NCBI GenBank assembly: GCA_947184155.2
Contig: CAMXCT020000314.1
Coordinates: forward strand, 104,486 to 168,485
DNA from: Cladocopium goreaui
Taxonomy: Eukaryota > Sar > Dinophyceae > Suessiales > Symbiodiniaceae
Length of the DNA: 64,000 nucleotides
Direction: 5' to 3'
Shown: positions 26,731 through 46,685 of the stretch, in pieces
Position numbering within the stretch: position 1 is the first letter of the stretch
Layout of the letters: each line of letters starts with the position of its first letter
Translations under genes and position numbers: made by a program
The notes under the pieces: model-generated
The model's database searches: none
The model's input: only the letters and a program-made list of their open reading frames with translations
What the model was told of the DNA's origin: nothing

Positions 26731-26884
26731 TTTACGCACAAACACAACGTTTCGCTTGCCAAAACCTGTAAAATGTTTCACAGACTTTGAGGTTTAAGAT
26801 CTAGGGTTTTAGGGTTACGTGTTTCATGTTTTGTCTATTCCTTTGTTTTTCGCGAGGGCGTCTGAGCGAAGGGTTCTTCTAATA

Positions 26885-27470
26885 GTGGGGGTCTGTCAAA
26901 CATTCTCACATCTTCACATCTTCTCATCCTCACATCCTCACATCTTCTCATCTTCACATCTTCTCATCTTCACATCTGCTCGTCTTCACATCTTCTCATC
27001 TTCACATCCTCACATCTTCACGTCTTCTCATCTTCACATACTCACATCTTCACATCTTCTCATCCTCGCATCCTCACGTCTTCACATCTTCTCATCCTCA
27101 CATCCTCACATCTTCACATCCTCACATCTTCACACCTTCTCATCTTCACATCTGCTCATGCTCACATCTTCTCATCTTCACATCTGCTCATCTTCACATC
27201 CTCACATCTTCACATCTTCACATCTTCTCATCCTCACATCTTCACATCTTCTCATCTTCACATCACATCTTCACATCACATCTTCACATCTTCTCACCTT
27301 CACATCTTCTCATCTTCACATCTTCACATCCTCACATCTTCACATCTTCACATATTCACATTCTCTCTTGCCCTCTTGCTCTCTTGCCCTCTTGCTCTCT
27401 TGCCCTCTTGCTCTCTTGCCCTATTGCTCTCTTGCCCTCTTGCTCTCTTGCCCTCTTGCTCTCTCCGTCT
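26885..27470. repeat. Tandem TCTTCACATC array, then CTCTTGCC array
   Basis: 26885-27360 is built from CACATCTTC, CACATCCTC and TCTCATCTT hexamer-multiples. 27362-27470 is (TCTTGCCC TCTTGCTC)n. A 250-codon plus-strand frame across both is a repeat artefact (His/Ser/Phe only). Confidence 0.93.
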
Positions 27471-27523
27471 TTTCTATTTCTCTCTTGATGGCGCGGGGCA
27501 GTGCCAACGAGACGGCACGAAAC

Positions 27524-28145
27524 GCAACCCTTTCTCACGAAACGAGGTTCGATCGCCAAAAACTGAAGTAAAATTGCGATTTTGAAGTGTCGGTCGCAAC
27601 CCTTTCGAACGAAATGAGGTTCGAGCGCCAAAAACTGAAGTAAAATTGCGATTTTGAAGTGTCGGTCGCAACCCTTTCGCACGAAATGAGGTTCGAGCGC
27701 CAAAAACTGAAGTAAAATTGCGATTTTGAAGTGTCGGTCGCAACCCTTTCACACGAAATGCGGTTCGAGCGCCAAAAACTGAAGTAAAATTGCGATTTTG
27801 AAGTGTCGGTCGCAACCCTTTCGCACGAAATGAGGTTCGATCGCCAAAAACTGCGGTGAAATTGCGAGTTGCAAGTTGTCCCGCGCAACCCTTTCGCACG
27901 AAATGAGGTGCGATCGCCAAAAACTGAGGTAAAATTGCGATTTAACAACTTCCGTGGCAACTATTTCGCACGAAATGAGGTTCGATCGCCAAAAACTGGG
28001 GTAAAATTGCGATTTTGAAATGTCCGCGACAACCCTTTCGCACGAAATGAGGTTCGATCGCCAAAAACTCCGGTAAAATTACGATTTTGAAATGTCCGCG
28101 ACAACCCTTTCGCACGAAATGAGGCTCGATCGCCAAAAACTGAGG
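27524..28145. repeat. 72-bp tandem repeat
   Basis: About eight copies of a 72-bp unit beginning CAACCCTTTCGCACGAAATG and containing GGTTCGATCGCCAAAAACTG. Because 72 is divisible by three, the minus strand stays open and repeats a 24-residue motif with FRAKGLRPTLQNRNF. The first five copies are most alike and the right-hand copies diverge. Confidence 0.93.
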
Positions 28146-28935
28146 TATGTAAAAGCGTGTGTGTGTAAAAGCGTCTTTGTGTAAAAGCGTCTGTGTGTAA
28201 ACGCTTCTGTGTGTAAAAGCGTCTGTGTGTAAACGCGTCTGTGTGTAAAAGCGTCTGTGTGTCAAAGCGTCTGTGTGTAAAAGCGTCTGTGTGTAAAAGG
28301 TTCTGTGTGTAAAAGCGTCTGTGTGTAAAAGCGTCTGTGTGTAAAAGTGTTTGTGTGTAAACGTTTCTGTGTGTAAATGCGTCTGTGTGTAAACGCGTCT
28401 GTGTGTAAAAGCGTCTGTGTGTCAAAGCGTCTGTGTGTACAAGCTTCTGTGTGTACAAGCTTCTGTGTGTAAAAGCGTCTGTGTGTAAAAGTCTCTGTGT
28501 GTGAAAGTGTCTGTGTGTGAAGGTGTCTATGTGTAAAAGCTTCTGTGTGTAAAAGTGTCTGTGTGTAAAAGCGTTTGTGTGTCAAAGCGTCTGTGCGTCA
28601 AAGCGTCTGTGCGTACAAGCTTCTGTGTGTACAAGCTTCTGTGTGTAAAAGCGTCTGTGTGTAAAAGCGTCTGTGTGTAAAAGTCTCTTTGTGTGAAAGT
28701 GTCTGTGTGTGAAGGTGTCTATGTGTAAAAGCTTCTGTGTGTAAAAGTGTGTGTGTGTGTAAAAGCGTTTGTGTGTCAAAGCGTCTGTGTGTCAAAGCGT
28801 CTGTGTGTACAAGCTTCTGTGTGTACAAGCTTCTGTGTGTAAAAGCGTCTGTGTGTAAAATTCTCTGTGTGTGAAAGTGTCTGTGTGTAAAAGCTTCTGT
28901 GTGTAAAAGTGTCTGTGTGTAAAAGGGTCTGTTGA
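28146..28935. repeat. 16-bp tandem repeat (GCGTCTGTGTGTAAAA)
   Basis: About fifty copies of GCGTCTGTGTGTAAAA and variants (GCTTC, CTCTC, GTGTC; TCAA or TACA for TAAA). Variants recur in blocks, indicating higher-order duplication. Confidence 0.94.
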
Positions 28936-31471: not shown

Positions 31472-32460
31472 TAGGTGCACAAAGGAGCTCACTCGGAATA
31501 GCCTGAATAGCCGCACTTGCCTTGCAGGCGAAGATAGCTTGTTGGCCATGCCGTGCAGGCGAAGCTTTGTGGCCATGGGTGCGTGGCGTGACCTTGCCAC
31601 AGTTGCAGGCGAAGCTGTTTGCAATGGGTGCAGGCCATGCAATCTATCCATATAGAACCTTTCCGATCCTTTAAATAAGGATTTCGGACGCATCGACGCA
31701 GCAAGAAAAATAGCAGCAAATTTGGGCATGTGTTTTCCTGATTTGACGTTTGTTCATCAAACAAGTTCTCTCTTCATCAAACAAGTTCTCTCTTGCCCCT
31801 TGTCTCTCCTGCGCAGGTGCTTCATCGTGTCCATCGACTTCGTTACAACTTTTCTCTGAGGATCGTGGTGTTGTTGTTGGGTTGGATGGATATTTCACAT
31901 GTGTTAAATATAGACATGTTGGCCTTGCTATAATGAGACATGTTTGGTTTACATGCAGGCGTGTGGATATATGACATGTGGATTTGCTGGCTGGTATATA
32001 GCTACAAAACATCATTTTGATCAATCCATTGATGACATTTTCCTTATTGCATTGTTTTTATTTTATTACTTGAAAATACCAAGGGTTGAAAAGGCTGCAG
32101 CCGGGCTTGGCTCGCTGGCCTGACCTAGCGGGCACTATGCTCGCAGGTTTGTCTGGAAAACATGCATGAGTGTTTCAATATTGGTTCACTACTATATGTG
32201 TCCATTTCATTATATACTTTGATCTATATACCAAACATGGTCCTGTGTAACTATATTAAAACAACTTCATGATTTTGAGCACGGTCATGAATCCAACCGA
32301 CCCACCAAAAAAGATATGTGACCTTTTTTTCACACGTACTTGCGAGATAAAATTTCGTTGCATGCTGATTTTTCTGGCGTTATGCTTTCATTTTACTATT
32401 ACCTTTTTTCATTATAGAGCTACAAAAAAATCAACATACTTCAAAAAAAATGTAGTTACA
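31472..32460. other. Unassigned DNA downstream of the candidate gene
   Basis: Short direct repeats (TTGCAGGCGAAG at about 31523, 31548 and 31603; CATCAAACAAGTTCTCTCTT twice at 31755-31793). No supported coding region. Confidence 0.45.
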
Positions 32461-32461
32461 T

Positions 32462-32660
32462 GTACATATAAGTCACTTAGGGGACTTAGGTTTGAAGCTG
32501 TCTAAGCGACTTAGCCCACTTAGCCTAAGTACGCTAAGTAGACTTAGCTAAGTCCGCTAAGTGGCTCAAAGCTAAGTGTGCTATCTAACTTAGCCTAAGC
32601 CGACTGAGTACTTAGCAAGTGCCTCAAGTACATAGTAAATATCATAAGTACTTACTAACA
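32462..32660. repeat. Dense cluster of CTTAG/CTAAG words
   Basis: About twenty occurrences of ACTTAG, GCTAAG, CCTAAG and TAAGT in both orientations within 200 bases, without a fixed period. It abuts the Penelope-like array. Confidence 0.75.
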
Positions 32661-32721
32661 AGGCTGATCCTCCAAGTAGAGTCAGAGGTTTTACGTCTAT
32701 TCGGTCGTTACACACACACAC

Positions 32722-33137
32722 ACTTGCTCAGAAACATCATTGCGAATTACTGTTGTGGAATGCATCTCACGTGCACAAGACAATCCCTTAAAGTCTGACA
32801 GGAAAGATTAGTTGATCCAGCGTGAAATTCATGGCGAAGTAAATTTTCTACGTCCTTGCTCTGAAGAAGGTTCAGATGCAGCGAAGTCCAAAATAAAATA
32901 ACATAATACCAGATTGCGACAACAGTGCATTGAATCGAAAAAGTCAAATGAACCGGCAAGGTGGTCTTTGGGTTAGCCACGTCCCGTAACGAGTAAATGA
33001 AGCAGGTACGTGGAGTTGATCAGACTCCATATCCTAGTCAACTGCATGGAGCTTCGTTGGCGACAGCCATGCAGCGACCCTGTCGCCCCCTGCTAAGTAA
33101 GAGGTTTTACATCTTTACAGATGGTTCACACACACAC
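32722..33137 (-). repeat. PLE-1 terminal repeat, 3' copy
   Basis: Begins ACTTGCTCAGAAACATC on the plus strand and ends GATGGTTCACACACAC. Nearly identical to 34031-34446. Confidence 0.85.
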
Positions 33138-33151
33138 CCTCCCGCAGGAGG
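33138..33151 (-). ncRNA. Hairpin at inner edge of PLE-1 3' repeat
   Basis: CCTCC-CGCA-GGAGG, a perfect 5-bp stem directly abutting the terminal repeat. In PLE-2 the same position has a different 7-bp stem (34918-34935). Confidence 0.5.
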
Positions 33152-33969
33152 ATGAGAAATTAAGGTCCCGACCATGAGATGAAAATGAAGAAGAAGGGCA
33201 ATGAAAATGAGGTGAAGATGACAATGAGATGAAAGTTACTTAACCAGGACGCAAAGAGGGGAACGCAAAAGAAGAGGGAAGGAGAAAACACCAACACATG
33301 AAACCTAGCCCAAAACGGGCAACCCTGGAAAGGCAAGGGAAAAGAAAAACGGAGGCCGAAGGACAACGGAACAAGACCAGCGGAGGAGGGGGAAGACAGA
33401 AGCGCCTGAACCAACCTGACACGGCGCAAACCTACAACAACCTCAGCACGCAACGGGCCAAACCTACCTGGAGGGAGGAGAACGCAAGAACACATGAAAA
33501 AGGAAGAAAAAGGGACCCATGGGGAACTAGTTAATGACATGATGCATCCACAACGCATGCAGTATTCGTGATAAGGCTCAAAGGCCCTCGGCTGTCAAGT
33601 TCCAACCCTATAGACGGCTTAAGTGTTCAACCCCTGAATTAAGTGCACAATTGAACCTCACCAACGACCATCAAAAGAAAGAAGAACCACACCTAAAGCA
33701 TGCCTGACGCCTCCATATGAACCCATGTCATGATGCAACTTGTCTGTCAAACTCTCGAGCAACGTTGAAAAACGGATGTTAACGTGGCTTCCAGCTATGC
33801 AGATCTGCAAAAGAAAAAGAAAAGGGTGATCCCAGGTACAGCGGGCAGCAGTTCAACACATCGACATCGACCGGTGAAACTTTGAAAAAAGGCCGTCTGT
33901 TTCACTTTACTTAGACGAATTACTAATTCAAAAGTGTAAATTCAGACATCGTTTTACTGTCAATTGTTA

Positions 33970-34026
33970 GCCTGGAAAGGCTTTCCCCGAAGGGTTCCTG
34001 CCAACTTGACGTACACAGCAGGAATG
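33970..34026 (-). ncRNA. Three-hairpin structured leader of PLE-1
   Basis: On the plus strand: AGCCT-GGAA-AGGCT, then CCC-GAA-GGG (on the transcribed strand CCC-UUCG-GGG), then TTCCTGC (33995-34001) pairing with GCAGGAA (34018-34024) around a loop containing CTTGACG. It ends two to five bases from the 5' terminal repeat. Function is unknown. Confidence 0.55.
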
Positions 34027-34030
34027 ACAC

Positions 34031-34446
34031 ACTTGCTCAGAAACATCATTGCGAATTACTGTTGTGGAATGCATCTCACGTGCACACGACAATCCCTTAA
34101 AGTCTGACAGGAAAGATTAGTTGATCCAGCGTGAAATTCATGGCGAAGTAAATTTTCTACGTCCTTGCTCTGAAGAAGGTTCAGATGCAGCGAAGTCCAA
34201 AATAAAATAACATAATACCAGATTGCGACAACAGTGCATTGAATCGAAAAAGTCAAATGAACCGGCAAGGTGGTCTTTGGGTTAGCCACGTCCCATAACG
34301 AGTAAATGAAGCAGGTACGTGGAGTTGATCAGACTCCATATCCTAGTCAACTGCATGGAGCTTCGTTGGCGACAGCCATGCAGCGACCCTGTCGCCCCCT
34401 GCTAAGTAAGAGGTTTTACATCTTTACAGATGGTTCACACACACAC
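34031..34446 (-). repeat. PLE-1 terminal repeat, 5' copy
   Basis: Near-identical partner of 32722-33137; joins the 3' repeat of PLE-2 directly through a CACACA run. Confidence 0.85.
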
Positions 34447-34917
34447 ACTTGCTCAGAAATATCTTATCGAATTACTGATGTGGAATGCATCGTACGTGCA
34501 AAAACACTTCAGTTAAACCTGACAGGAAGGGTTGAATGATTGGAAGTGAGAAACTGCTCGAAGGAAATCATTCTACGTCCTTGCTCGAAGGGTTTTCAGG
34601 TTCTGATGCAGCTCAGTCAGATTGCGAAAACCGTACGGTTGTTTGGTTTGAAAAAAGTTGAAAACCGACATGCCGGTACTTGGCTTAGCCGGTTGCCATG
34701 GACGAAAGTGAAAAATGGCGCAGGTACGCAGATTGGCGTCCCAATCTGTATCACCAGATCAAATGGGTGTCTTCGTTGGTAGCGGTCCCAAATGATCTGC
34801 CGCTACCCCCTGCGAAAATGAAAAAACCTCATGTCAGCAGAAATGAAAACAACAGGTACACAAAGGTCCGAGTTACAAAATAGAAGTTTTACATCTTTTC
34901 AGATGTTCCACACACAC
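34447..34917 (-). repeat. PLE-2 terminal repeat, 3' copy
   Basis: Begins ACTTGCTCAGAAATATC on the plus strand. Nearly identical to 45212-45672 with about six scattered differences. Confidence 0.87.
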
Positions 34918-34935
34918 GCCTCGCTGCCGCGAGGC
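34918..34935 (-). ncRNA. Hairpin at inner edge of PLE-2 3' repeat
   Basis: GCCTCGC-TGCC-GCGAGGC, a perfect 7-bp stem at the position equivalent to 33138-33151; the pairing is kept although bases differ. Confidence 0.5.
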
Positions 34936-35088
34936 TGTTTTGACGGCTGCGGAGTGGCTAGCGAAGCTCTTATCTAGGCCCTGAAGCAGGAAACAGCGAT
35001 TGACGCAAAATCAAAATACAGGGAGGAAATCTGCATTTGAATTATCCGGTCAGCTCAGAACGACATCGGCAGGAAGTTCAGCAGGTCT

Positions 35089-36027
35089 TTAGTCATCATC
35101 AATGTCGGACAACCTTTCCATCTGTTGAGCTTGCTGAGACAGAATATGGGTCGTCTGTGCTAAATGACTGGCAAGGTGGGCCAAGTCTGTTGCCGTAAAG
35201 ACCTGGACCGGATTGGTGCTCAAGTCATCTCCTGGATTCTCAAGCTTCTCGAGGATCGCCGCATTGGATTCCCTGTCATTGTTGAGAATGTCCCAAAGGA
35301 CTGCAGCCAGTTGGTGGATCTGACTTGGTACCGATGCGGCACCGGCGTTGGCGGTGATGGAATCTGTGTCTTCCATCCCGGATCCCGGCAATGATTCTTG
35401 GCTTTCTTCCGGTTGGTCAGCATTGTCAGACTCTTGCGGATAATGTTGCCAAGAGGTCTGCTCATGGTGCACTTCAGGAATGTTGAAGTGACGACGCCAG
35501 TAGTTGGCAAGTTGGGTGGATTGCTCCCATGAGTCTATCCATCCATAGCGGTCAGCACGGATGTGACCAACAATCCCATTGAAGAAAAACTCCGGTTGAC
35601 GGTTGTGTTGCACACCGTAACGGTCCACTTCCGTCACCATGAGGCGACTGACTCCCGGTTGATGAGGAGAGCGAACTTCTGTGAAGATGTGAGTATGGAG
35701 CGTTCGATGCTGTTGTTCGATCTCCGTTTGGAGTGGGTAGGCCTCTTCACGTACAGGCTGTATTGGGTTTTGATGGGCAGAGGTATCAGGAAGGGGTACT
35801 GGCTGAGCCGTAGCCGTATACCGGTAGTGAGATGAACTGCCGCTCTGATCCGTACCTGGAAAGGATGGCCAGGTCGGAGTATCAGTGACACTGCTAGGTG
35901 AAGGTCTTGGACCGGAGGATGTAGCATCACTGCTAGATTGGCTCTGAAGTCTGGAGTGTCGTCGTGGCATGCCCATCGGTGCACGAGGAGAAGTGATACC
36001 GGCAAGAAAGGAATCATGCTTGGTCAT
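35089..36027 (-). CDS. PLE-2 last ORF, unknown function
   Basis: 312 codons starting MTKHDSFLAGITSPRAPMG. A Ser/Thr/Pro-rich N-terminus is followed by a folded-looking middle (HIRADRYGWIDSWEQSTQLANYW) and a C-terminal helical, Gln-rich segment (LAHLASHLAQTTHILSQQAQQMERL) that may be a coiled coil. The frame is intact. It begins after a pyrimidine-rich stretch (36060-36150 on the minus strand), as do the two ORFs upstream. No family recognised. Confidence 0.55.
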   Translation of the reverse strand: MTKHDSFLAGITSPRAPMGMPRRHSRLQSQSSSDATSSGPRPSPSSVTDTPTWPSFPGTDQSGSSSHYRYTATAQPVPLPDTSAHQNPIQPVREEAYPLQTEIEQQHRTLHTHIFTEVRSPHQPGVSRLMVTEVDRYGVQHNRQPEFFFNGIVGHIRADRYGWIDSWEQSTQLANYWRRHFNIPEVHHEQTSWQHYPQESDNADQPEESQESLPGSGMEDTDSITANAGAASVPSQIHQLAAVLWDILNNDRESNAAILEKLENPGDDLSTNPVQVFTATDLAHLASHLAQTTHILSQQAQQMERLSDIDDD

Positions 36028-36160
36028 GATAAAGCTGAAGCCAAGAGCTATAAAATGTCAAAATAGGTGCCGGAAATGAAGTGACAAATGGAAATGAAAC
36101 AGGAAGAGAAGGAAAAAGAAAACAGGGACGCAAGAAGCAGCAAAAGGCTTTTTGTCCGCA

Positions 36161-36705
36161 TTATGGAAGCATGTTGCGGTTTTGGAGAGCCTCATGGCAG
36201 CTCATACGCATGATGTACGGCTGATAGTGAGACGTGAAATATCGAATATTGCTAGGGAATAAAATGCCAAATTCTTGACCTTCAGTCCAATGAGGACGAT
36301 ATTCATGAAGGAGTTCGACAAGGCGGTCCTCATTGTGGAGAGTGAAAGTGTCTCCAGTCTCATCTTGCCACCGGATGTCCATTGAGGACGGAGGAAGGTA
36401 GCGATCCCACGTGTACCAGATGTGTTGGCTGATGTAGTATAGCAGGTTGTACACCGTGAATGTGTCAAGTTGATGGATGTCAAGCAAGATATTGTAGGTG
36501 AACAGAGCAAGTTCTTCATTTCTGCTAAGGGTGGGCAGCACATCGCATGTCGTGGAGTCCATGACGTCATCATGGATTTTGTTGGCTCATGCCATGAATC
36601 ACGATGTTGATTGCGATGCTGCGGGTGGCGGCTTTGCCACATGGGATCGTCCCATGAACGGGAACGTTCAGGAGCAATACGTACGTAGTTGGATGAATGA
36701 GCCAT
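36161..36705 (-). CDS. PLE-2 small ORF, frameshifted, unknown function
   Basis: The probable start is MAHSSNYVRIAPERSRSWDD (ATG at 36705), just after TTTTCCAG, with a 150-bp pyrimidine tract upstream. Sense then moves to another frame near 36560 (MDSTTCDVLPTLSRNEELAL) and continues through LLYYISQHIWYTWDRYLP to a stop at 36161. The second part is rich in aromatic residues and compact-looking. The family is not recognised. Confidence 0.45.
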
Positions 36706-36904
36706 ATTTGCTGGAAAACAGACATGGACCGACATGTCAGGGAAGATGAGAACAGGAAAGCAGAAGAGAAGGAGGCCAAAAGGAAAAAAGGCAGGAGCGG
36801 AAGAAACCACAAGAGAGAGGAGGGAACGAAAACAGGAAAAGGAAGCAGAGACGAATGCAGTAGCAGCGAATGCACACTTTTTCCGGATGGGAGATCAATG
36901 CATC

Positions 36905-37922
36905 TTAGTCCTCAGCCTCTGGTTCGTGAGGTGGGTGAACACGGCCATGTTGGTCCGTTTGTTTTAAGATTCCCCATCTAAGTTTGCACACCTGGGGATC
37001 ACGGTGAAGTCGAGCTCCGATCGTCTTCCACGAAGGACGGGACTTTGTGTCCTGTTTTAAGCTGATTAGTTCTTGATCATCTGTGTTGGTCCAAGGAAGA
37101 AATGGGGGATCACGAGGAGGATCAGCTGGATTTGGTTGGAGGATTCGAAAAGTTGGAGATGGTGGTGCCTTTGGGTTCGGTGTCAGTGTGAGAGTGGAGG
37201 AGCCAGGTGGCGTGGTGGAGGTGGTGTTGGATGGTGCAGCGGGGCGATAGCCGATGTCTGTGTCCGGGTGATCATGTGCGGAAGCAGTTCCTGACACTGC
37301 ATCATAATCGGAATCATCTGAGTTGATTGAAGCCTCCAGGAGGTACTTCGGAGATGATGGGAAGCGGGCCAGGGCGACCACATCTCTCAGTGGCAGGGAC
37401 TCGGGTGTCTGGAACTGGCGCCGATTTTTGTTTTTTCTTCGGCTGCGGGTCTTCAGTTGATGAGGCCCGTTGTTTGGACCGAACAGGGACTGGGATTGTA
37501 GTCCTGGTCGTGGCTCGAGGAGGTTCAGTACCGGGTGAAGTACCTGGAGTTGGATCAATGACTGGATCCGTCATGAGAACTGGATTTCGTGCTTCCACAG
37601 GTGTAGCGGAAGTATGGTCGGCATCCCTGTAATGTGGTTGATGCGTGGTGGTGGGACGTAGGTTTGGTTCAGGATTCACAACCATCTGTGACGGAATGCC
37701 TCCATGTGACACCATGGTTGGTGGAAGTGAAGAAGGAGGTAAAGGAACGAAAGTGTGGAGGCCTCTGGATGTTGGACGTTCCAAGCGGAAATGTGAAGAG
37801 GGCATGGAATCTTCCCACTCAATGGACGGCTCGAAGAAGGGGAGAAGCCCCGCCAAGTGGTTTAGATGCACAATGGCCCGAGCCAGGTGGTGATGAAAGG
37901 CACGGCCTTGAGCGTGGTCCAT
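36905..37922 (-). CDS. PLE-2 Myb/SANT-like DNA-binding protein, frameshifted
   Basis: The likely start is MDHAQGRAFHHHLARA (ATG at 37922), preceded by a pyrimidine-rich tract of about 150 bp. A long Pro/Thr-rich region has a basic patch (PKKKQKSA). Reading shifts frame somewhere in 37320-37558 to the frame that ends at 36905. Near the C-terminus (about 37100-36957) WTNTDDQELISLKQ, SWKTIGARL and CKLRWGIL follow the three-helix Myb/SANT pattern with regularly spaced Trp. Myb/SANT domains bind DNA or histone tails. Here it could guide insertion or regulate the element; that is inference. Myb domains are not a usual component of Penelope-like elements as I know them. Confidence 0.55.
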
Positions 37923-37933
37923 GGGAAGCAAAA

Positions 37934-39499
37934 TTAACAGCAAGGAAAAGGGCAGAAGCGGTGGTTGAGCCAAGAAGCTGCAAAGAAACACCAGCAACAA
38001 CAAAGAAGGAGAAAACCACCATGAAGAAAAGAGAAAAGAAAAGAAACCCAAAGGAGAGAGCAGCAAGGACAATAAAAACCGGCAAGCATCAAGCGCATGT
38101 TTGACTTGGCGGTTGAAGGTTCTGATGCTGAATCAATAGGTGATTTGAAATTGTCTGGAGTTCCTCCTTGGGAAAACCAGCGCGTGTGTACAAATGAATT
38201 ATATAATTGGGCAAGACCTTGTTGGACGCGAAAATCAGGGAAGGCGCCCTTGATGACGATGTGGCAGCGCGAGCGAAAACCACTGAGGAGGACTTTCGGA
38301 GGGGAAGCTGAAAATGGTGAGAGGACTTGAGAGACGTTCGTCGGTCCCTGATAGATCAGTTCCAGTGGTTTTGTTTCAAGCATGAAGCCGAGAAATTCTT
38401 GGTCAGGTTCAGTTTCAAGAATGATAGGTTTGCCATAGAATCCATCGTCCAGGAGGACTTCATATGGTGCAAGTGCAGTGAGGCGTTTGTCTCCGAAGAT
38501 GAGACGGTTGTCGACGTAGCGGATATGGCGGATGAATAAATGCTGGTTGGAAAGAAGTTGATGGAAGGTGATGGACCAAATTTGCTCACTGATGGAGACT
38601 ACCATCAGACATAGAGCAGGTGACAGAGGACTGCCCATGGGACTTCCTCTGCATTGACGGACACATTTTTGGCCCAGTGCGAACGTTTGCATGTTCAGTG
38701 CTGATTTTATCAGGCCTGGGACATCTTTGATGATGATCTTTCGGGTGACATTGAGACGACGGAAAGTACGTCCTTTGATGATGTCTCCTGGATTGTTGGA
38801 TTTTCCCGGATAAACCGAAAAAGCTTCATCGTCGGAGACATTCATTTTTGGACGCAGAAAGTCCAAAAGCATGAACCAGGATCTGACGAATCTGTCTTGG
38901 TCAATGCTGGTGAAGAAGCCCGCTAAGTCTTGATTGACCAGGATTAAATCGGCGTCGACAGGCGCCGATTTCAAAATGGAGAGTAGTGTGTAAACACCCC
39001 CAGTGGCAAAGTGGTTGGGACAGGCTGCTGGAATGAGCTGAAAGATCAACCGGGCAAGGATGTTGAGCATGGGCCGAAATGGGGAGTCCACGAAGGAAAT
39101 GATGGGTCGGCCACTGCGGAATTCTTTCTTTCGTTTGGCCAAAATGTAGCCGGATGGAAGTTGACGGCCAGAACCCACTGCCCAAGGATAGGCTTTGCCA
39201 TGTTGACGTTGAAGGGATTCGACGAGTGAGGTCACTATGGAGGATGGTTCGTCCGGTAATTGTTCAAAGATTGAAGGGTCCATGGAAGGTTTGTTCAATG
39301 GATTGATAGTAAAGACATGGACAGTAGATGCGGAGAGAAGAGGAATGTTTGTCCTCGCAATGGAAAATGGTGCCTTCAAACGTGGATTGAAGTTTAGTGA
39401 TGGAGGACTTCGTGATGTGATTGGTGATTCGCTGGGTGTGTTCTGACCAGAGGTGGCAGAGGTCAGAGATGGTCGTCTGTGGCATAGAAGGTAAGCCAT
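37934..39499 (-). CDS. PLE-2 reverse transcriptase core
   Basis: The frame joins the GIY-YIG frame (39264-40829) by a one-base shift between 39499 and 39264. RT landmarks are RPIISFVDSPFRPM, NQDLAGFFTSID (motif A, catalytic Asp), CRGSPMGSPLSPALC (motif B) and HIRYVDNRLIFG (motif C). The GSPMGSPLSP form is typical of Penelope-like elements. Motif C reads YVDN where active RTs have YxDD: the first Asp is kept and the second is Asn. The true C-terminus is unclear because the frame runs on into the pyrimidine tract before the Myb ORF. The enzyme would prime on nicked target DNA and copy element RNA. Confidence 0.8.
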   Translation of the reverse strand: MAYLLCHRRPSLTSATSGQNTPSESPITSRSPPSLNFNPRLKAPFSIARTNIPLLSASTVHVFTINPLNKPSMDPSIFEQLPDEPSSIVTSLVESLQRQHGKAYPWAVGSGRQLPSGYILAKRKKEFRSGRPIISFVDSPFRPMLNILARLIFQLIPAACPNHFATGGVYTLLSILKSAPVDADLILVNQDLAGFFTSIDQDRFVRSWFMLLDFLRPKMNVSDDEAFSVYPGKSNNPGDIIKGRTFRRLNVTRKIIIKDVPGLIKSALNMQTFALGQKCVRQCRGSPMGSPLSPALCLMVVSISEQIWSITFHQLLSNQHLFIRHIRYVDNRLIFGDKRLTALAPYEVLLDDGFYGKPIILETEPDQEFLGFMLETKPLELIYQGPTNVSQVLSPFSASPPKVLLSGFRSRCHIVIKGAFPDFRVQQGLAQLYNSFVHTRWFSQGGTPDNFKSPIDSASEPSTAKSNMRLMLAGFYCPCCSLLWVSFLFSFLHGGFLLLCCCWCFFAASWLNHRFCPFPCC

Positions 39500-40829
39500 T
39501 GCGTTTCGTCCAGGTCTTGAGACCCAGTCGCATCTGATTATGATATTCCTTCTTGGACGGGAAGACTTTGTTGGACAAGGAACCTTCTGCGATCACTGCC
39601 ATTTCTGGTGGGAGTAAGGAATGGAGAAGGGAGCCTGATAGGACCCAATGTGGATCTGAGGGATTGAGAGCTGCGGGTTTGTAAGATGACCAAGATTTGC
39701 AACAGCAAATCGCTGGATTGGAAGTAGACCAATCATCGATGGCCTGTTTGTGATTGCAAAGTTTGTCGAGAACGGCAGCATGCTTGATGAAGACCATCTT
39801 GAAGGATGGAGTGTGGCATGGAACTTGGTGTTCCAGCATTTTGAAGTGCCACTGACGCAGGAATTTCCTCAATTGTGGCTGGAGATTCGGGGAAAGAGGC
39901 CATGGTGCCCGTAAGGCTGAGGCCCGTGGGGCCGGTTTTCCATGCCACCATTTTATTGAGGCATCGATTGCATTCAAGGAAAGAGTTCGGAAAGGTTCCT
40001 GGGTGTTGTTTGCCAACCGGCGAAGAGCATAGCAAAGGGTGAGACCCCCATCATTGGATCGGAGCATCTTCGTTTGTTCGAACCTCACCTTGGTATTTGA
40101 TCCTAAGGCGTGGATGATGATCCAGAGTTCCAGACGGTTTTGAAACCGTGATGACGTCAAGATTTGACGGACAAGTTGTGGAGTGAATTTGTGTTTGGCA
40201 CGACGCCAAAGGGTGGCCAGGCCGAACTGTGCGTTGGTGTTGAGAAGGGGTTTTTTGAGAATGCCCTTCTTTGTGTGGAAGAATTGGCAAATGAAGGGAT
40301 AGTTAAGTCTGGGTTGCCACTCTTGGATGAGGGCCATTTCGAGGCTGCGGTAGTCTGCCCTGTCTGTGTAGATTGGGATCGGAGCCCAAATGTACAGGTT
40401 GTCGTGATCATGCCAATAGCGAAGTGCCAGCTCGGCTTGGACAAGTCTCTCGTTCGTGAGTTGGAAATATTTTCTGGAGCGGCTGTACTCTCTGTCGAGG
40501 GTACTGTGCATTGCAGAGCCCACATAGACATAGAATTTGGGTTGCAAATTGGCAAAATGGGTGAAACGGATGTAGACGCTCTGAGGCTGGAAAAATTGTC
40601 TTGAAAAAAGATTGTGAGAGTGTAGGGTGGTACCCCAAAGGTGCTTGAGATCGGCACACTTCAGCTTAGGATTGGGTCGGAGACCGTGGAGGATTGCCAA
40701 CACCATCATACGTGTCTGGATGATGCGGAAGCCCTGAAAAAGGTGGATGCCGTGAGTCATGGTGAAGGGAGTCAAAATGTAGATGACTAGAATCATCGAA
40801 TGAAGAATGTGCAAATGGGATTGAAGCAC
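39264..40829 (-). CDS. PLE-2 GIY-YIG endonuclease domain (N-terminal part of RT protein)
   Basis: From about residue 97, KFYVYVGSAM corresponds to the paired GIY and YIG strands. Further on, ERLVQAELALRYW precedes MALIQEWQPRLNYPF, giving the conserved Glu and the terminal P-x-L-N. The remainder is a helical spacer leading to the RT core in the next frame. The ORF overlaps the stop region of the Pro-rich ORF: a short frame starting TTG at 40869 (LTSTSLSSQAQAQG) probably supplies its true N-terminus through another one-base shift near 40670-40730. Nicking of target DNA is the family role; the flanking CA repeats are a plausible target. Confidence 0.75.
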   Translation of the reverse strand: MLQSHLHILHSMILVIYILTPFTMTHGIHLFQGFRIIQTRMMVLAILHGLRPNPKLKCADLKHLWGTTLHSHNLFSRQFFQPQSVYIRFTHFANLQPKFYVYVGSAMHSTLDREYSRSRKYFQLTNERLVQAELALRYWHDHDNLYIWAPIPIYTDRADYRSLEMALIQEWQPRLNYPFICQFFHTKKGILKKPLLNTNAQFGLATLWRRAKHKFTPQLVRQILTSSRFQNRLELWIIIHALGSNTKVRFEQTKMLRSNDGGLTLCYALRRLANNTQEPFRTLSLNAIDASIKWWHGKPAPRASALRAPWPLSPNLQPQLRKFLRQWHFKMLEHQVPCHTPSFKMVFIKHAAVLDKLCNHKQAIDDWSTSNPAICCCKSWSSYKPAALNPSDPHWVLSGSLLHSLLPPEMAVIAEGSLSNKVFPSKKEYHNQMRLGLKTWTKRNGLPSMPQTTISDLCHLWSEHTQRITNHITKSSITKLQSTFEGTIFHCEDKHSSSLRIYCPCLYYQSIEQTFHGPFNL

Positions 40830-40865
40830 CTTGTGCTTGAGCCTGCGACGAAAGAGAGGTGCTAG

Positions 40866-42122
40866 TCAATTGGTGGGACTAATGCCTGCTGTCATGGCTC
40901 GAAGGAGATTGAGTGCATCATAGTTCTTCCCCATGAGGTTGACCGGGATACCCATCATGACGGCAACTCGTTCGACAGTGTCCAGAGCTTCTGCCGGTTG
41001 GTTGGCCCACCATTCCTCTGTTTTTGCAATGTTGTCCGTGAGGACCTTCCTCTTTGAATCCGATAAGTTGAGTTCTTTGAGCCATTTGTTGAAGGCTCGC
41101 ACTGCAAGGGATGGCGGCATGTTTTGAGCAAGCCAGGGATTCACAGTGGTGGTGGCGACAAGCAAAGAGGACGGATCGAAGCCAGGTGGTGCGGGAGCTG
41201 GGCTATGAGAATTCCGAAGGAGGGCTGCTTGAATAGGTGTTGAAGCAGGACTCGACGCTGAAGGTCCCGTGGTTCCTGGGGTGGATGGTTCACCTGAAGT
41301 TTCACCAAGTTGTTGGCGCAGTTGTGCCAACTGGCTTCTGAGTTGGGTGAGCTCATGCTGAGTGTCTGGATCTGCTGTACGGGTGGGAACCCAGCTATGG
41401 ATGAGGTCAGCAATGTGCTGTGCCGCATACTTGGTGTGATTGGTTTTGTCAAGTAGCTTTCCATCTTGTCTGGCTTTGCAGGAGGAGACTTTGTCCAGGT
41501 CGACTCCCTTGTTTCTGAGCTGCGTCAAGAGCTCAGTCATAAATACAACTGCTGCAATGTCTCCAGTGGGAATCAAGTAAAGTTCACGTCCATGAGCCAG
41601 CTTGCGAAGCCAGAAGTTGTTGGCCTGTTGATACAACAGGGCCGCCACTGGTAATTTCAAAGGATCACATCCTTCGATGTCCAGTTTTTGCGTGAAGGCT
41701 GATTGACGAATACTTCGAGGAAAGGTCGAACCGTTGATCTTCTGATTGTCGTAGTGATCTTTATCCTCTTGCCAGTGAGGATTGAGATCAAAGCCGTATG
41801 TGCGGCTGTCATCGACAGTTGTATGACCTCCTGGTGAGTTCGTGAATGGAGTACCAGCTTGACGAGGTTGGGACGAAGGGATCGATGGAGTGCTGGGTGA
41901 GGCAGCTTGAGTAGGTGGACAAGGCAAGGTAGGTGAGCACGGTGGAGTGGGTGGAAATGGATATGCCAAGGTGGGTGGAGGTGACGATGGAGGTGCCGAT
42001 GGAAACCGTGGATGTGGCCAGGTGCCCGATTGAGTGGCTGAGTTTTGACTGATGGATTGATTCAGACAATAGGCTCCCGACTGTTGTAAATTGAACTGAG
42101 GTCGAAACTGAGGTCGTGACAT
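40866..42122 (-). CDS. PLE-2 Pro-rich protein with helical C-terminus (ORF1-like)
   Basis: The likely start is MSRPQFRPQFNLQQ (ATG at 42122); 418 residues. The N-terminal 100 residues are mostly Pro and Ser. A structured middle includes KLDIEGCDPLKLPVAALLYQ and RELYLIPTGDIAAVVFM. A leucine-rich helix follows (HELTQLRSQLAQLRQQLG), a likely coiled coil, and a helical C-terminus (LAVRAFNKWLKELNLSDSKR). Position just before the RT ORF and the coiled coil suggest a nucleic-acid-binding or multimerising ORF1. Its TGA stop overlaps the start of the next frame. Upstream, TTTTGTTTTCCTCAG on the minus strand near 42304-42318 resembles a splice acceptor. Confidence 0.6.
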   Translation of the reverse strand: MSRPQFRPQFNLQQSGAYCLNQSISQNSATQSGTWPHPRFPSAPPSSPPPTLAYPFPPTPPCSPTLPCPPTQAASPSTPSIPSSQPRQAGTPFTNSPGGHTTVDDSRTYGFDLNPHWQEDKDHYDNQKINGSTFPRSIRQSAFTQKLDIEGCDPLKLPVAALLYQQANNFWLRKLAHGRELYLIPTGDIAAVVFMTELLTQLRNKGVDLDKVSSCKARQDGKLLDKTNHTKYAAQHIADLIHSWVPTRTADPDTQHELTQLRSQLAQLRQQLGETSGEPSTPGTTGPSASSPASTPIQAALLRNSHSPAPAPPGFDPSSLLVATTTVNPWLAQNMPPSLAVRAFNKWLKELNLSDSKRKVLTDNIAKTEEWWANQPAEALDTVERVAVMMGIPVNLMGKNYDALNLLRAMTAGISPTN

Positions 42123-42713
42123 TTTTGCTGTGAGTGCCAGACTGCCGTTTGCATTGGTCCACACCATCGAGGAAAGAAGGGTAGTTCTTGTCATACCGGT
42201 GGAATTGGAACACGAGGTTCAGCACGATTCCGTCCAGGCACTGGGGATCGAGATCGATCCGACTCCGCCATGGGTGCACAAAATGATGTCTTTTTTGGAC
42301 GCTGAGGAAAACAAAACTGCAAGTTCACAGAGGTTTAATCAAATTCAACTATTAAGAAAAACCCCGAGAAAACAAGAATCAACCACCGACATGACAGGTT
42401 CATCCAGCAAGATACTCAAGCATTGCAATGTCTGAAACCAGAAGCATCAAACTTGCTGGAGAACATGAAAAACTTGAAATTCAGATTGGAGCAACCGTGC
42501 ATTTTTGGTCAAGAGCGTGTCCAGGTTGTCCCTAGAAAGGTAAGATTCGGATTCCTGTTTAGGCCGAATGTCGCTAATAATACAAGATAACACATGCGCA
42601 GTGCTGAGTGCCTGTCATCTACGACGACCTGAGTAACGTTCCTCATTGCTACGATAGTTACAGTCGTCTGAGGTTGTGTCACCAATGTCGATCTTCATGG
42701 TGAGGTCAGCCCA

Positions 42714-44665
42714 TTAAAGAGCGATGAATTTCAATCCCACATATTGGCTGTGAGCAGTGTACTTCTCCGACGTGGTGACGATTCCTTTTTCAATCACACC
42801 GAGTTGAGCCATCTCGTTGCCTCCGGCTTTGTAGGCAGTATGGTCAGCGGACCCTCGATACATCGCCCCCACGACGATATCCTGTTGGCCCTTGCCTTTC
42901 TTGCCGATGGAGTCAAGGAGTTCTCTTTCTGCCCAGGGTGGGATCGTTCTATCACTGTTGGATACTTCTCTGCCAAGAAAGAATGCCCCAAAGGTTGGTA
43001 GGTGGCAACGCTGAGGGTCTTTGTGATAAGACCAGTTTGCAGGTCTGATCTTGCCTTCAAGGAGTATTTGTTGAGAAGTGTGAAGTGTCGTCCCATGACA
43101 AAGTGCCCATGTGTGATTTTGACGTTTGCCGAAGGGAGGTGGTATTTGGAAGTGGCTAGTGTCAGGTAATGGCATGATGAGTGCAAGCATGTTGGTGGAT
43201 GGAACTTCTCGGACATGGCAAGTTGATAAATCGTAGTCAGGGAGAAGGTTGGTGCTGAAAAAGAGTTGGACCGCCTTCTTGACCACATCTGGAGGGATCC
43301 GTTGATCAACTTGGTGAAGTTGTTCACAAGCCTTTTCATAATCTTCTTGATCCATAGTTGTGGAAGGCTTGGGACGATCGGCGGCTGCGATCTCATTTGC
43401 TGCGCGCATCCTGTCGGGATGGTTCAAAGCAAATGTTATATGTCGAGCCCATTCATCTCTCGAACCATCTTGGAGGTTGATGGCAACACGTCCTGGAGGG
43501 ACGGTGGTGGAACCACGAGATTGGACTGAACCTGATCTGTGTGGAGGTCGGCGTGGTCGATTGTAGGTGGTGCTGTGATCGGAGGAGAATGCTGTGAGTG
43601 GTTTGGTGGAGGAGACGTAGTGGCTGTGGTCACTGAATGTTGGTTTTGTGTAGTCAATCCAACCAGATGGGTTGGATGTGTAGGAGGATTTGGGGTAGTC
43701 TTTCCATTGGCCCCAGGATTTCCACTTATTGGTGGTCTGTTGGTCGTAGTGGTAGTAGGTTGACTGGGTGTTCGCAGTATGGGAGGATTGTTGTGGGTGG
43801 TGTTCCCACGTTGCGGGTTGAAGAGTGGCTGGCAAGTGACTGGGTTCGTGAAGTGGATGATCATCAACTCCTCGATGTTGTACTTCTCGATGACGTGGAG
43901 AGGCTGAGCGTAATGTGATCGATGCAGCTCTGCTTGGACGCCTCGAAGCATGTCTCGACGTGGAGTATCTTCTTCTGGATGAGGAGCGTGGACGAGACGA
44001 GCGATGGGCTCGTCTTTTGGATTTTGGTCGACGAGGACTGCGTGGGATGGAGATCGGACGTTTGTCCGGTGTTCTGGGACTGGAACGATGATGATGAGAG
44101 CGAGAACAAGAGCGACGGTGGGAACGTTGGTGTGATGGTGGGAAGTCATCCGGTGGATGAGGATGGCTGGGGATGGGTGGAGAGATCGGAATTGGTGGCT
44201 GGGCTCAGGTGGTGGAGGGTGACTCTTGTTGTGCCCTCGGTTCTTGTCCACAAAAGCCTGCATACTGGATTCGACCGTGTTCTTCATCTGCTGCATCATC
44301 TCCTCTGGATTGAAGGATACACTTGATCCAGGTTGTGTGGATGAAGGTGCCACAGGTGTTGGTGGTTCTGGCGCTTGTGGTGTGGACTGAGATGGAGGTG
44401 GAGTGGGCGTGGATTGATGGAAAGGAAGAAGCTGTTGGAGATGCTGGATGTGAGATTGAGCTTGTGACGCGAGTTGCTGATTTAGGATGGAATCTTGCTC
44501 CCTGAGAGCCGCCAGTTGCGCCTGAGTCTGAGCTTGAGACTGAGCTTGTGACTGCTGGTTCATCAAATCACCTCCACAAAATTGACCTTGAAGTCCCATC
44601 GGTTGTGGGTTCCATCCAAAGTTCCACATCGTGTCAGGGACGTTAGGAAAACGTCCAGGAAACAT
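42714..44665 (-). CDS. PLE-2 first ORF: Gln/Pro-rich region plus HGT-motif domain, frameshifted
   Basis: Starts MFPGRFPNVPDTMWNFG at 44665, then a Gln-rich stretch (QSQAQSQAQTQAQ) and long Pro/Thr-rich and basic regions. A one-base shift between about 43835 and 43436 leads to the frame with EWARHITFALNHPDRMRAANE, a helical block, and WALCHGTTLHTSQQILLEGKIRP, AFFLGREVSNS and VVGAMYRGSADHT. The HGT followed by a helix and Gly resembles the NAD-binding strand of the ADP-ribosyltransferase and Tpt1 folds, but no second diagnostic motif is clear. Other identities are possible. The frame ends intact at 42714. Confidence 0.5.
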
Positions 44666-45148
44666 GGCAGCACTGTCAGGTTTCGAAATTGAAAAACCTA
44701 GTTCAAAAAAGATGCATCCACATTACTGTGCAAGTTTCCCCTCGTTAGGCTCAATGGCCAGAGTTCAATTCAACCCCATCGACGGCTGTCAGTATTCAAG
44801 TGAATTAAGTGCACAATTGAACCTCACCAACGACCATAAAAAGAAAGAATCACCACACCTGCAGGAATGTCCTGATGCCTTCACATGGTCACATGTCATG
44901 TTGAACATGTCGAGCTCCGTACTCTCTTGGGCATCATTGAAAAAACGGATGTTGTCGCGGCTTTCAGCAGGCTACTCAGGAGATGCATTCACTCTGAAAA
45001 AATTGAGTCCCTGGAACAGCGGGCAGTTATTCAACACAAAACGACATCGACAGGTGAAACATGGAAAAAAGGCTGGCTGTTTCACTTTACTTAGACGAAT
45101 TACTAATTCAAAAGTGTAAATTCAGACATCGTTTTACCGTCAATTGTT

Positions 45149-45207
45149 AGCCTGGAAAGGCTTTCCCCGAAGGGTTCATACCACCTTGACGAATATCGGT
45201 ATGAAGG
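45149..45207 (-). ncRNA. Three-hairpin structured leader of PLE-2
   Basis: The first two hairpins are identical to those of PLE-1. The third stem is TTCATACC (45175-45182) with GGTATGAA (45198-45205), different bases from PLE-1 but fully paired, with CTTGACG again in the loop. This compensatory change supports a selected RNA or DNA fold. Confidence 0.6.
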
Positions 45208-45211
45208 ACAC

Positions 45212-45672
45212 ACTTGCTCAGAAATATCTTATCGAACTACTGATGTGGAATGCATCGTACGTGCAAAAACACTTCAGTTAAACCTGACAGGAAGGGTTGA
45301 ATGATTGGAAGTGAGAAACTGCGCGAAGGAAATCATTCTACGTCCTTGCTCGAAGGGTTTTCAGGTTCTGATGCAGCTCAGTCAGATTGCGAAAACCGTA
45401 CAGTTGTTTGGTTTGAAAAAAGTTGAAAACCGACATGCCGGTACTTGGCTTAGCCGGTTGCCATGGACGAAAGTGAAAAATGGTGCAGGTACGCAGATTG
45501 GCGTCCCAATCTGTATTACCAGATCAAATGGGTGTCTTCGTTGGTAGCGGTCCCAAATGATCTGCCGCTACCCCCTCCTAAAATGAAAAACCTCATGTCA
45601 GCAGAAATGAAAACAACAGGTACACAAAGGTCCGAGTTACAAAATAAAAGTTTTACATCTTTTCAGATGTTC
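45212..45672 (-). repeat. PLE-2 terminal repeat, 5' copy
   Basis: Partner of 34447-34917. Its outer edge (TTTTCAGATGTTCCACACAC) runs into CA microsatellite, so the exact end is uncertain by about 15 bases. Confidence 0.87.
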
Positions 45673-45702
45673 CACACACACACACACCCACGCACGCGCG
45701 CA

Positions 45703-45734
<32 letters not shown>

Positions 45735-45742
45735 CCCACCCA

Positions 45743-45773
<31 letters not shown>

Positions 45774-45930
45774 GCACGCGCTTGCGCACGCGCACGCGCA
45801 CACGCACATGAACACGCACACGCACACGCACACGCCACGCACATGAACACGCACACGCACACGCACACGCACACGCCACGCACATGAACACGCACACGCA
45901 CATGCACCCGCACCCGCACCGCACCACAAT
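45673..45930. repeat. CA/CACG microsatellite at the PLE 5' edge
   Basis: Runs of CACACA, CGCACGCA and CACGCACATGAACACG. Likely the insertion target of the Penelope-like array. Overlapping ORFs are artefacts. Confidence 0.93.
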
Positions 45931-46685
45931 CACCCCCTCGTTCTTCCTTGCCAGCTTGCTCGCCAGCATGTCTTTGCCAACTTGTGTGCCAGCCACCTCG
46001 ACACAGCCACCCTCCAACGAGGTTGCCAATGCTCTGGGCCCCTGCTTATGGCGAGCTGGGCCCCCACTGAACTGAACCCTGCAGGGAACTTGCAAGCTCT
46101 TCGGGCCCGAACCCCATGCCAGATTAAAGGACAGATTGGCTGTCAGAATATTTGTCAGAAAAAATGCCAGGTAGAATGCCAAAGAGAATGCCACATATAA
46201 TATCAGAGTTAATGTCAGACAAGATGTCATGAACATTTGTCACATATTCATACTCGCATCGTTTTCATATAGGTTTCACAAGTCTTGGCGCATTGTACTT
46301 GCATTGTACGTTGGCACATATTAGCTTCAATTTCTCCAAAATACGATTTCCTTATTTGTTTCTGCATTTGTCTTTCGGGCTCCCTGTCGGCAAGTTTGCT
46401 GACAGTGCCTGATCGAGGCTTGCCGGCGGCTTGCCGTTTTTGGGTTGTTCCTGAGTTTCTGCTCGCACTTACATGTATCTTATTTCAGGCATATGATTGT
46501 TTTTGGGCGTATTTGATGGTATTTGATCGCATGTGCATCTACCACTCTATAAGTTTTTAATCACGGACATTCCTGATCTGCGTGTTTCATCCAGTTTTTC
46601 CCCACATCTTTGTGTGGGGTTCTTGTTTTTGGTTCTGCATCCCGTCCGCCGCCTCCTCCTCCCGCCTCCTCCCGTCGCCTCCTCC
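45931..46685. other. Unassigned DNA
   Basis: Contains loosely repeated TGCCA and TGTCAGA words (46125-46230). No supported gene. Confidence 0.45.

Follow-up and report, generated by a model that had tools for sequence, protein, structure and literature searches.

A probable six-gene, endonuclease-bearing Penelope-like retrotransposon in the dinoflagellate Cladocopium goreaui

We analysed a 64,000-nucleotide (nt) stretch of the genome of the dinoflagellate Cladocopium goreaui (contig CAMXCT020000314.1, positions 104,486 to 168,485; the whole stretch is called the window below). A block on its minus strand, at 34443-45681, holds six genes, here named A to F, between two terminal direct repeats, and probably represents one copy of a Penelope-like element (PLE) with six genes and an endonuclease that is present in high copy number. 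Together with the mechanism proposed below, this reading is given a probability of roughly 0.78. PLEs are the retroelements closest to telomerase.

In sense order the block consists of a (TG)n-type microsatellite, the repeat R, a leader S, genes A, B, C, D, E and F, a hairpin, (TG)n, R and again (TG)n, and it measures 10.8 kb from repeat to repeat. An earlier reading of the letters, made without database searches (the sequence-only reading), had described same-strand open reading frames (ORFs) between near-identical direct repeats of about 470 bp. Both points hold: all element ORFs were found on the minus strand between the two R repeats, and R, which is about 465-475 nt long, is 98.1% identical over 475 nt (34443-34917 against 45208-45681) in a self-comparison of the window. 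The parts of the block are located as follows, with lengths of proteins given in amino acids (aa).

45673 to 45924, no strand: (CA/TG)n plus CACG microsatellite adjoining the 5' end of the element, the likely target
45208 to 45681, minus: 5' terminal repeat R (a pseudo-long terminal repeat, pseudo-LTR), which starts behind (TG)n with GAACATCTGAAAAGATGTAAAAC and finishes with TTTCTGAGCAAG
44771 to 45191, minus: leader S, common to a short unit on the left and to other copies
42714 to 44665, minus: gene A, with a Q-rich coiled-coil start, an SR-rich middle and a predicted PARP-like ADP-ribosyltransferase domain (about 42756-43409); interrupted in the window copy
40866 to 42271, minus: gene B, proline-rich, with a coiled coil; broken near its start in the window copy
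37934 to 40796, minus: gene C, with GIY-YIG motifs (40302-40580), a CPC linker (39315-39359) and a reverse transcriptase (RT); interrupted in the window copy
from 39160, 38935, 38650 and 38521 downward, minus: RT motifs of gene C, by motif reading
36905 to 37922, minus: gene D, Pro/Lys-rich, with a C-terminal Myb/SANT domain; interrupted in the window copy, 323-349 aa in relatives
36161 to 36705, minus: gene E, of no known family; interrupted in the window copy, 202-203 aa in relatives
35089 to 36027, minus: gene F, of no known family; 312 aa, intact
34918 to 34935, minus: GC-rich hairpin sequence GCCTCGCGGCAGCGAGGC, which closes the body directly before (TG)n and the 3' repeat
34443 to 34917, minus: 3' terminal repeat R, 98% identical to the 5' R and followed by (TG)n

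The six genes recur together elsewhere in the genome. Sixteen loci were read, ten chosen by R and six taken from 31 RT-marked loci, and five of the 16 carry all six genes in A-F order. One of these (C5714) is complete from R to R, its 3' repeat (345 nt) being cut by the end of the fetched stretch. Three that were chosen by RT (C1265, C246 and C2148) have A to F between repeats, with the 5' repeat of C2148 at the fetch edge, and in the fifth (C3486) the start of A was not detected. Another three loci have intact 3' ends and stop inside C (C1045), inside D (C4316) or before E (C4198), the last two keeping their tail genes with the 3' repeat. C1671 has R, the leader, the start of A, 5,000 bases of N and then the end of D, E, F and R; C3332 has R, the leader, part of A and a second R. 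B to F were found at C3948, with no A within 4 kb, and C5339 has A to D and the start of E, the remainder of E and F not being seen in the next 3.7 kb. At C4051 the contig ends inside D, C2085 has a single R, and C1669 and C6128 hold short units.

Linkage was also measured across the genome. A search with the RT gave 1,584 first-look candidates in 1.17 Gb, of which the best 94 were scored and all matched (94/94), and a search with B gave 7,959, of which the best 95 were used; the two lists were ranked independently. When they are paired, 56 same-orientation pairs have B before the RT with 1,577-1,917 bp in between, and in 27 of these the spacing is exactly 1,603. No best-list RT lies in range of 39 of the 95 best B matches, a figure that can be read neither way, given 1,584 RT and 7,959 B candidates. 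Among homologs from public assemblies (120 per gene), 39 RT homologs have D-region sequence behind the RT, eight F homologs have E-region sequence before F, 16 A homologs have the leader before A, one runs from A into B and four run from F into R; some of these neighbouring stretches are out of frame, and they show adjacency of the DNA. Coincident contig sizes in the homolog lists (6, 7 and 6, against 0.13-0.20 expected) were an early pointer to linkage, which direct reading has superseded.

An ordinary one-gene PLE, with C alone inserted between unrelated genes of the host or surrounded by host genes that landed there, would leave profile-recognised domains only in C and D and would sit easily with a window copy in which five of the six genes are broken. 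It has next to no chance of being right, as the same order is found at other loci with diverged sequence, where both repeats flank all six genes, and purifying selection acts on all six (see below); the recurrence of six genes already refutes it. The sequence-only reading had named the RT alone as a possible recurrent unit, and this fails as well: the RT stands in A-F order at independent loci and in the 56 B-RT pairs.

Other relatives were seen in passing. To the left of the window, on the same contig, C314:82168-85437 (minus) holds a second RT, and B is only 901 nt ahead of it, compared with the usual 1.6 kb; this is probably another copy, with a deletion. Matches to R lie at C314:88441 and C314:675. 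Directly before the complete copy, C5714:26090-27120 (L012) contains relatives of E and F at about 30% identity, which we read as what remains of another family, or of one much older, with these tail genes. Protein P0088 is an internal deletion product in which the RT runs, in one frame, straight into the middle of F.

Six same-strand genes are present, as the sequence-only reading had it, but in the window copy frame changes break A, B, C, D and E, and only F is open from start to stop. Elsewhere the genes are found open. Rows from copies in this genome have an open frame of the expected length for A in one of nine (694 aa, copy C1265), for B in two of nine (459 and 471 aa, from the start codon), for D in five of ten (323-349 aa), for E in five of 11 (202-203 aa) and for F in six of ten, window included (309-324 aa). 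The A row of C1671 (1,702 aa) was left out, as a 5,000-base run of N follows it; homolog P0131 has A open over 689 aa. The longest open frame of C reaches 643 aa in nine same-genome rows and 963-964 aa in the public homologs P0021 and P0018, whose ends continue into the spacer. Since the genes of the element are open in other places, the five breaks seen here mark a defective copy or else indel errors in the assembly.

The ratio of nonsynonymous to synonymous substitution rates (dN/dS) was determined against the window copy for gene pairs with at least 60 aligned codons. It was 0.06-0.39 in 25 gene comparisons over seven loci and below 0.4 for all six genes, the highest values, 0.35 and 0.39, both coming from A. 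These ratios indicate that purifying selection acts on all six proteins. Because the ORFs recur in the same genome with dN/dS values in this range, chance ORFs are excluded.

Profiles identify few of the proteins. In Pfam, the Myb domain of D matches PF13921 above the cut-off (E 8.8e-7) and the RT of the window copy of C matches PF00078 below it (E 7.7e-4); the best Pfam score for RVT_1 among the C sequences scanned has an E of 4e-5. For A, B, E and F, Pfam returned nothing useful, only weak names such as DUF6643 for one F homolog. From NCBIfam, where each of A to F was represented by one protein or a piece of one, the sole match was a weak one of C to a group II RT. A sequence search of the PDB gave no credible match, and viral contigs scanned with C, the A domain and F contained no relatives. 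The structure model of F is poor (pLDDT 47.4), with an unstructured start and a helical end.

The sequence-only reading had argued from the terminal repeats that the block moved as one unit, and comparison between copies bears this out. Within a copy the two repeats are 98.1-100% identical in 10/10 units (the window element, a short unit in the window and eight others), and between copies they average 82.6%; the top four between-copy values, 98.9-99.6%, come from the two C1669 units compared with each other. Because repeats are so much more alike within copies than between them, we conclude from the sequences that the block moves as one unit. The three loci that stop short at the 5' side with intact 3' ends are as expected from target-primed reverse transcription.

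The ends of the units are alike as well. In the window and at ten loci, repeats start with CATCT-loop-AGATG and then AAA and end with TGAGCAAG; the survey looked for those motifs, and repeats lacking them would go undetected. The hairpin GCCTCGCGGCAGCGAGGC is exact at six other loci and differs by one base in C3332. Short (TG)n tracts stand at the surveyed unit ends and a (TG)n/(CACG)n microsatellite of 250 bp adjoins the right end of the window element, figures that carry no background rate and include TG that may in part be the element's own.

Within-copy repeats as similar as the LTRs of a single insertion, the presence of several genes, and PARP-like and Myb proteins, which are unusual for PLEs, could also point to an element of LTR type or viral origin, with true LTRs as its repeats. 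We regard this as very unlikely. Among the element ORFs scanned with Pfam, none gave an integrase, a protease, an RNase H or a tyrosine recombinase; one protein combines GIY-YIG motifs with an RT; and 5' truncated copies and head-to-tail units occur. The pseudo-LTRs, head-to-tail units and 5' truncation found here (the last in C1045, C4198 and C4316 among the 16 loci) are features of endonuclease-bearing PLEs.

Gene C gives a tentative placement within the PLEs. Before the RT, its relatives read SVYI...KFYVGSA...DREYSRSR...LEMALIQEWQPRLN, with the motif order SVY, Y[VL]G, Arg, Glu, Asn; the alignment used six clean copies (that of B used two clean sequences). The described GIY-YIG pattern has the order GIY, YIG, Arg, Glu, Asn (PMC1564403). 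The GIY-YIG domain of C is thus assigned by motif, as this part of C has no profile match in Pfam or PHROGs and nothing credible in the PDB by sequence. The motifs precede the RT and do not take the C-terminal placement of an endonuclease, and all ten copies (10/10) have CPC in the linker. In Rfam, no hammerhead family was matched at E up to 5 over 32000-46500, and the five matches obtained were all far below gathering scores.

A clade of PLEs with an N-terminal endonuclease (Chlamys/Naiad) was reportedly described by Craig et al. in 2021. N-terminal-endonuclease PLEs have a CxC linker motif and an insertion bias toward microsatellites. The position of the endonuclease motifs in C agrees with this clade, with which the element shares an RT preceded by GIY-YIG motifs within a single protein, pseudo-LTRs and the lack of a hammerhead match in Rfam, and perhaps also the (TG)n at its ends and the CPC stretch in the linker. 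It differs by five further genes, by its 10.8 kb, by a GIY-YIG part that is invisible to profiles and by CPV in place of CPC in relative P0059.

Canonical Penelope/Poseidon elements likewise form tandem units with pseudo-LTRs and encode GIY-YIG and RT in one protein, but they have a C-terminal endonuclease, one ORF and a hammerhead ribozyme motif (PMC11167929). Endonuclease-bearing PLEs have been described as compact single-ORF elements, and Terminons of bdelloid rotifers (Athena) as endonuclease-deficient PLEs of up to 40 kb with accessory ORFs, bound to telomeres and containing hammerhead motifs (PMC6431247). Giant size, accessory ORFs, 5' truncation and head-to-tail arrays are shared with Terminons, whose accessory functions include an exonuclease, an esterase, a stand-alone GIY-YIG-like protein and Rep (PMC6431247). 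The present element differs in having GIY-YIG motifs, assigned by motif, in the RT protein, (TG)n ends, and PARP-like and Myb proteins. The sequence-only reading had called the block far more complex than a usual PLE, which is right in relation to endonuclease-bearing PLEs and too broad for PLEs as a whole, since rotifer Terminons are a multi-ORF precedent (PMC6431247). Multi-ORF PLEs are therefore known, without endonuclease and at telomeres, and the six-gene, endonuclease-bearing form appears to be new. A literature search over titles and the beginnings of abstracts, with most subscription papers out of reach, returned no recognised description of this element, which is not proof that it is unpublished.

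Gene A had been labelled an HGT-motif protein by the sequence-only reading; the ORF is there, and its identity can be refined to a predicted ADP-ribosyltransferase-like protein. The model of its "HGT" domain folds like a PARP catalytic domain, which is a new finding. In Foldseek, ranks 1-11 are all PARP entries, two of them PARP-HPF1 complexes, and in VIA all 50 rows shown are PARP/ARTD domains, at a sequence identity of 6-10%. The catalytic triad H-Y-E is present in 56/68 relatives of A and H-F-E in 9/68, and the window copy has F at the Y place; the count covers the 68 of 120 homologs in which all three motifs were located, and the other 52 were left out. Gene A thus resembles PARP/ARTD catalytic domains in fold and in H-Y-E order, and differs from them in its low identity, in being encoded by a retroelement, in sitting behind a coiled-coil/SR region and in the exchange of Y for F in some relatives. 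An unrelated fold that merely resembles an ADP-ribosyltransferase would be in keeping with the middling model confidence and Z of the domain and with the lack of a PARP match in Pfam. It is improbable, as both structure searches point to one family that had not been named beforehand and the H, Y/F and E motifs are conserved in the expected order.

For expression of the six genes, the host spliced leader has to be considered. The dinoflagellate spliced leader (DinoSL; sequence from PMC6050394) has 21 fixed bases; the assembly (1.166 Gb, 6,202 contigs) contains 172 exact copies of them and none of a reversed control, which marks the host as a dinoflagellate. Spacers C-D, D-E and E-F are 73-78% pyrimidine, compared with 52-56% in the genes. 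In the window, a polypyrimidine-AG lies 7-57 nt before all six starts, with a mean score of 0.98 against 0.80 at random places (p 2e-4; p 6e-4 against ATGs); this rule was set after looking at the window, and the other copies are the better test. Among the copies, an AG of the top 4.4% was found within 75 nt of B in 9/9 rows, of D in 9/10, of E in 9/11 and of F in 10/10, while in the same copies 12.3% of 75-nt sense stretches taken at random reach this level. The chance of each of these four counts is 3e-7 or less if rows are independent, which they are not. These polypyrimidine-AG sites suggest spliced-leader trans-splicing of one long RNA, for which the putative acceptors in the window are the following.

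42302 to 42303, minus: putative trans-splice acceptor AG for B, preceded by a polypyrimidine tract
37978 to 37979, minus: putative trans-splice acceptor AG for D, followed by the DinoSL-like stretch CTTCTTGGCTCAA (37965-37977)
36711 to 36712, minus: putative trans-splice acceptor AG for E
36048 to 36049, minus: putative trans-splice acceptor AG for F

Several observations weigh against trans-splicing of a long RNA. Acceptors before A (3/9 rows) and C (2/9) are not above background (0.09 and 0.31), B and C are just 70 nt apart, and polycistronic expression has been called rare in dinoflagellates (PMC11453091). Alternatively, promoters of their own in the spacers, cis-splicing or re-initiation might serve to express the six genes. 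We hold this to be the unlikely course, though one with real weight, because diverged copies have a strong polypyrimidine-AG 5-55 nt ahead of B, D, E and F, the genome contains DinoSL, and DinoSL addition has been proposed to split polycistronic RNA (PMC7245778).

A DinoSL-like trace was sought at all six starts, and only D stands out. Most rows have CTTCTTGGCTCAA behind its acceptor AG, and C3486 is closer to DinoSL (CGTAGCAACTTGGCTCAA). The score of D is 18 in 9/10 copies and 24 in 1/10, where the null mean is 12.8; the single-row p is 0.04, and 18 is reached by 3.1% of all 100-nt windows. The trace at F was not significant (p 0.20), and no DinoSL with up to three mismatches occurs in the window. 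Relict leaders have been reported at -50 to -100 (PMC6050394), and the trace of D lies near that range. The stretch behind the D acceptor, kept in diverged copies, is possibly the trace of a capture from a host mRNA.

The block is not solitary. A short unit without element genes lies head to tail with it on its left (32718-34449, minus), consisting of T (34027-34449), S (33603-34011), filler and T' (32718-33140); its own repeats T and T' are 99.3% identical and its leader is of the same kind. Behind T' (32600-32730), (TG)n is followed by TAACGACCGAATAGACGTAAAAC, which looks like the start of a third unit at 32.7 kb, and the window may contain at least three units head to tail. Such gene-less units (repeat, leader, filler, repeat) measure about 1.3 kb from repeat to repeat, and pairs of R matches 1.26-1.40 kb apart were found in eight contigs (C1990, C4807, C6128, C120, C747, C1477, C1300 and C248), which suggests an abundant non-autonomous derivative. 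The two short units of C1669 are in opposite orientations. Further to the left, at 26843-28758, the window contains satellite arrays with 72-nt and 16-nt units that are related to sequence behind the A domain in homolog P0231.

A mechanism can be proposed for the six-gene element. One long RNA would be made from the repeat, and the host spliced leader would be trans-spliced at the polypyrimidine-AG before at least B, D, E and F to give separate mRNAs, while the unspliced RNA would serve as the genome. The GIY-YIG part of C may nick (TG)n-rich DNA and prime reverse transcription there, which would often end before the 5' end is reached. Packaging or transport of the RNA may fall to B and to the coiled-coil/SR part of A, and D may help to find the target. 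The ADP-ribosyltransferase of A could modify host repair or chromatin proteins at the break. A more specific version is an operon-like retrotransposon in which the PLE RNA is trans-spliced, D was captured from a leader-bearing host mRNA, with CGTAGCAACTTGGCTCAA in C3486 as the relict, and A is an active PARP-type enzyme at the break. We put this version forward tentatively, at somewhat less than even odds.

With at least 94 of 1,584 RT candidates confirmed in one 1.17 Gb genome, the six-gene form suggests that PLEs can grow as complex as retroviruses. If trans-splicing is true, a spliced-leader host would be a condition that allows multi-gene retroelements. A PARP-like enzyme encoded by a retroelement would, if true, give a direct handle on the dealings of PLEs with host DNA repair. 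In dinoflagellate assemblies, some of the repeats and predicted genes that now lack annotation would also gain a name through the element.

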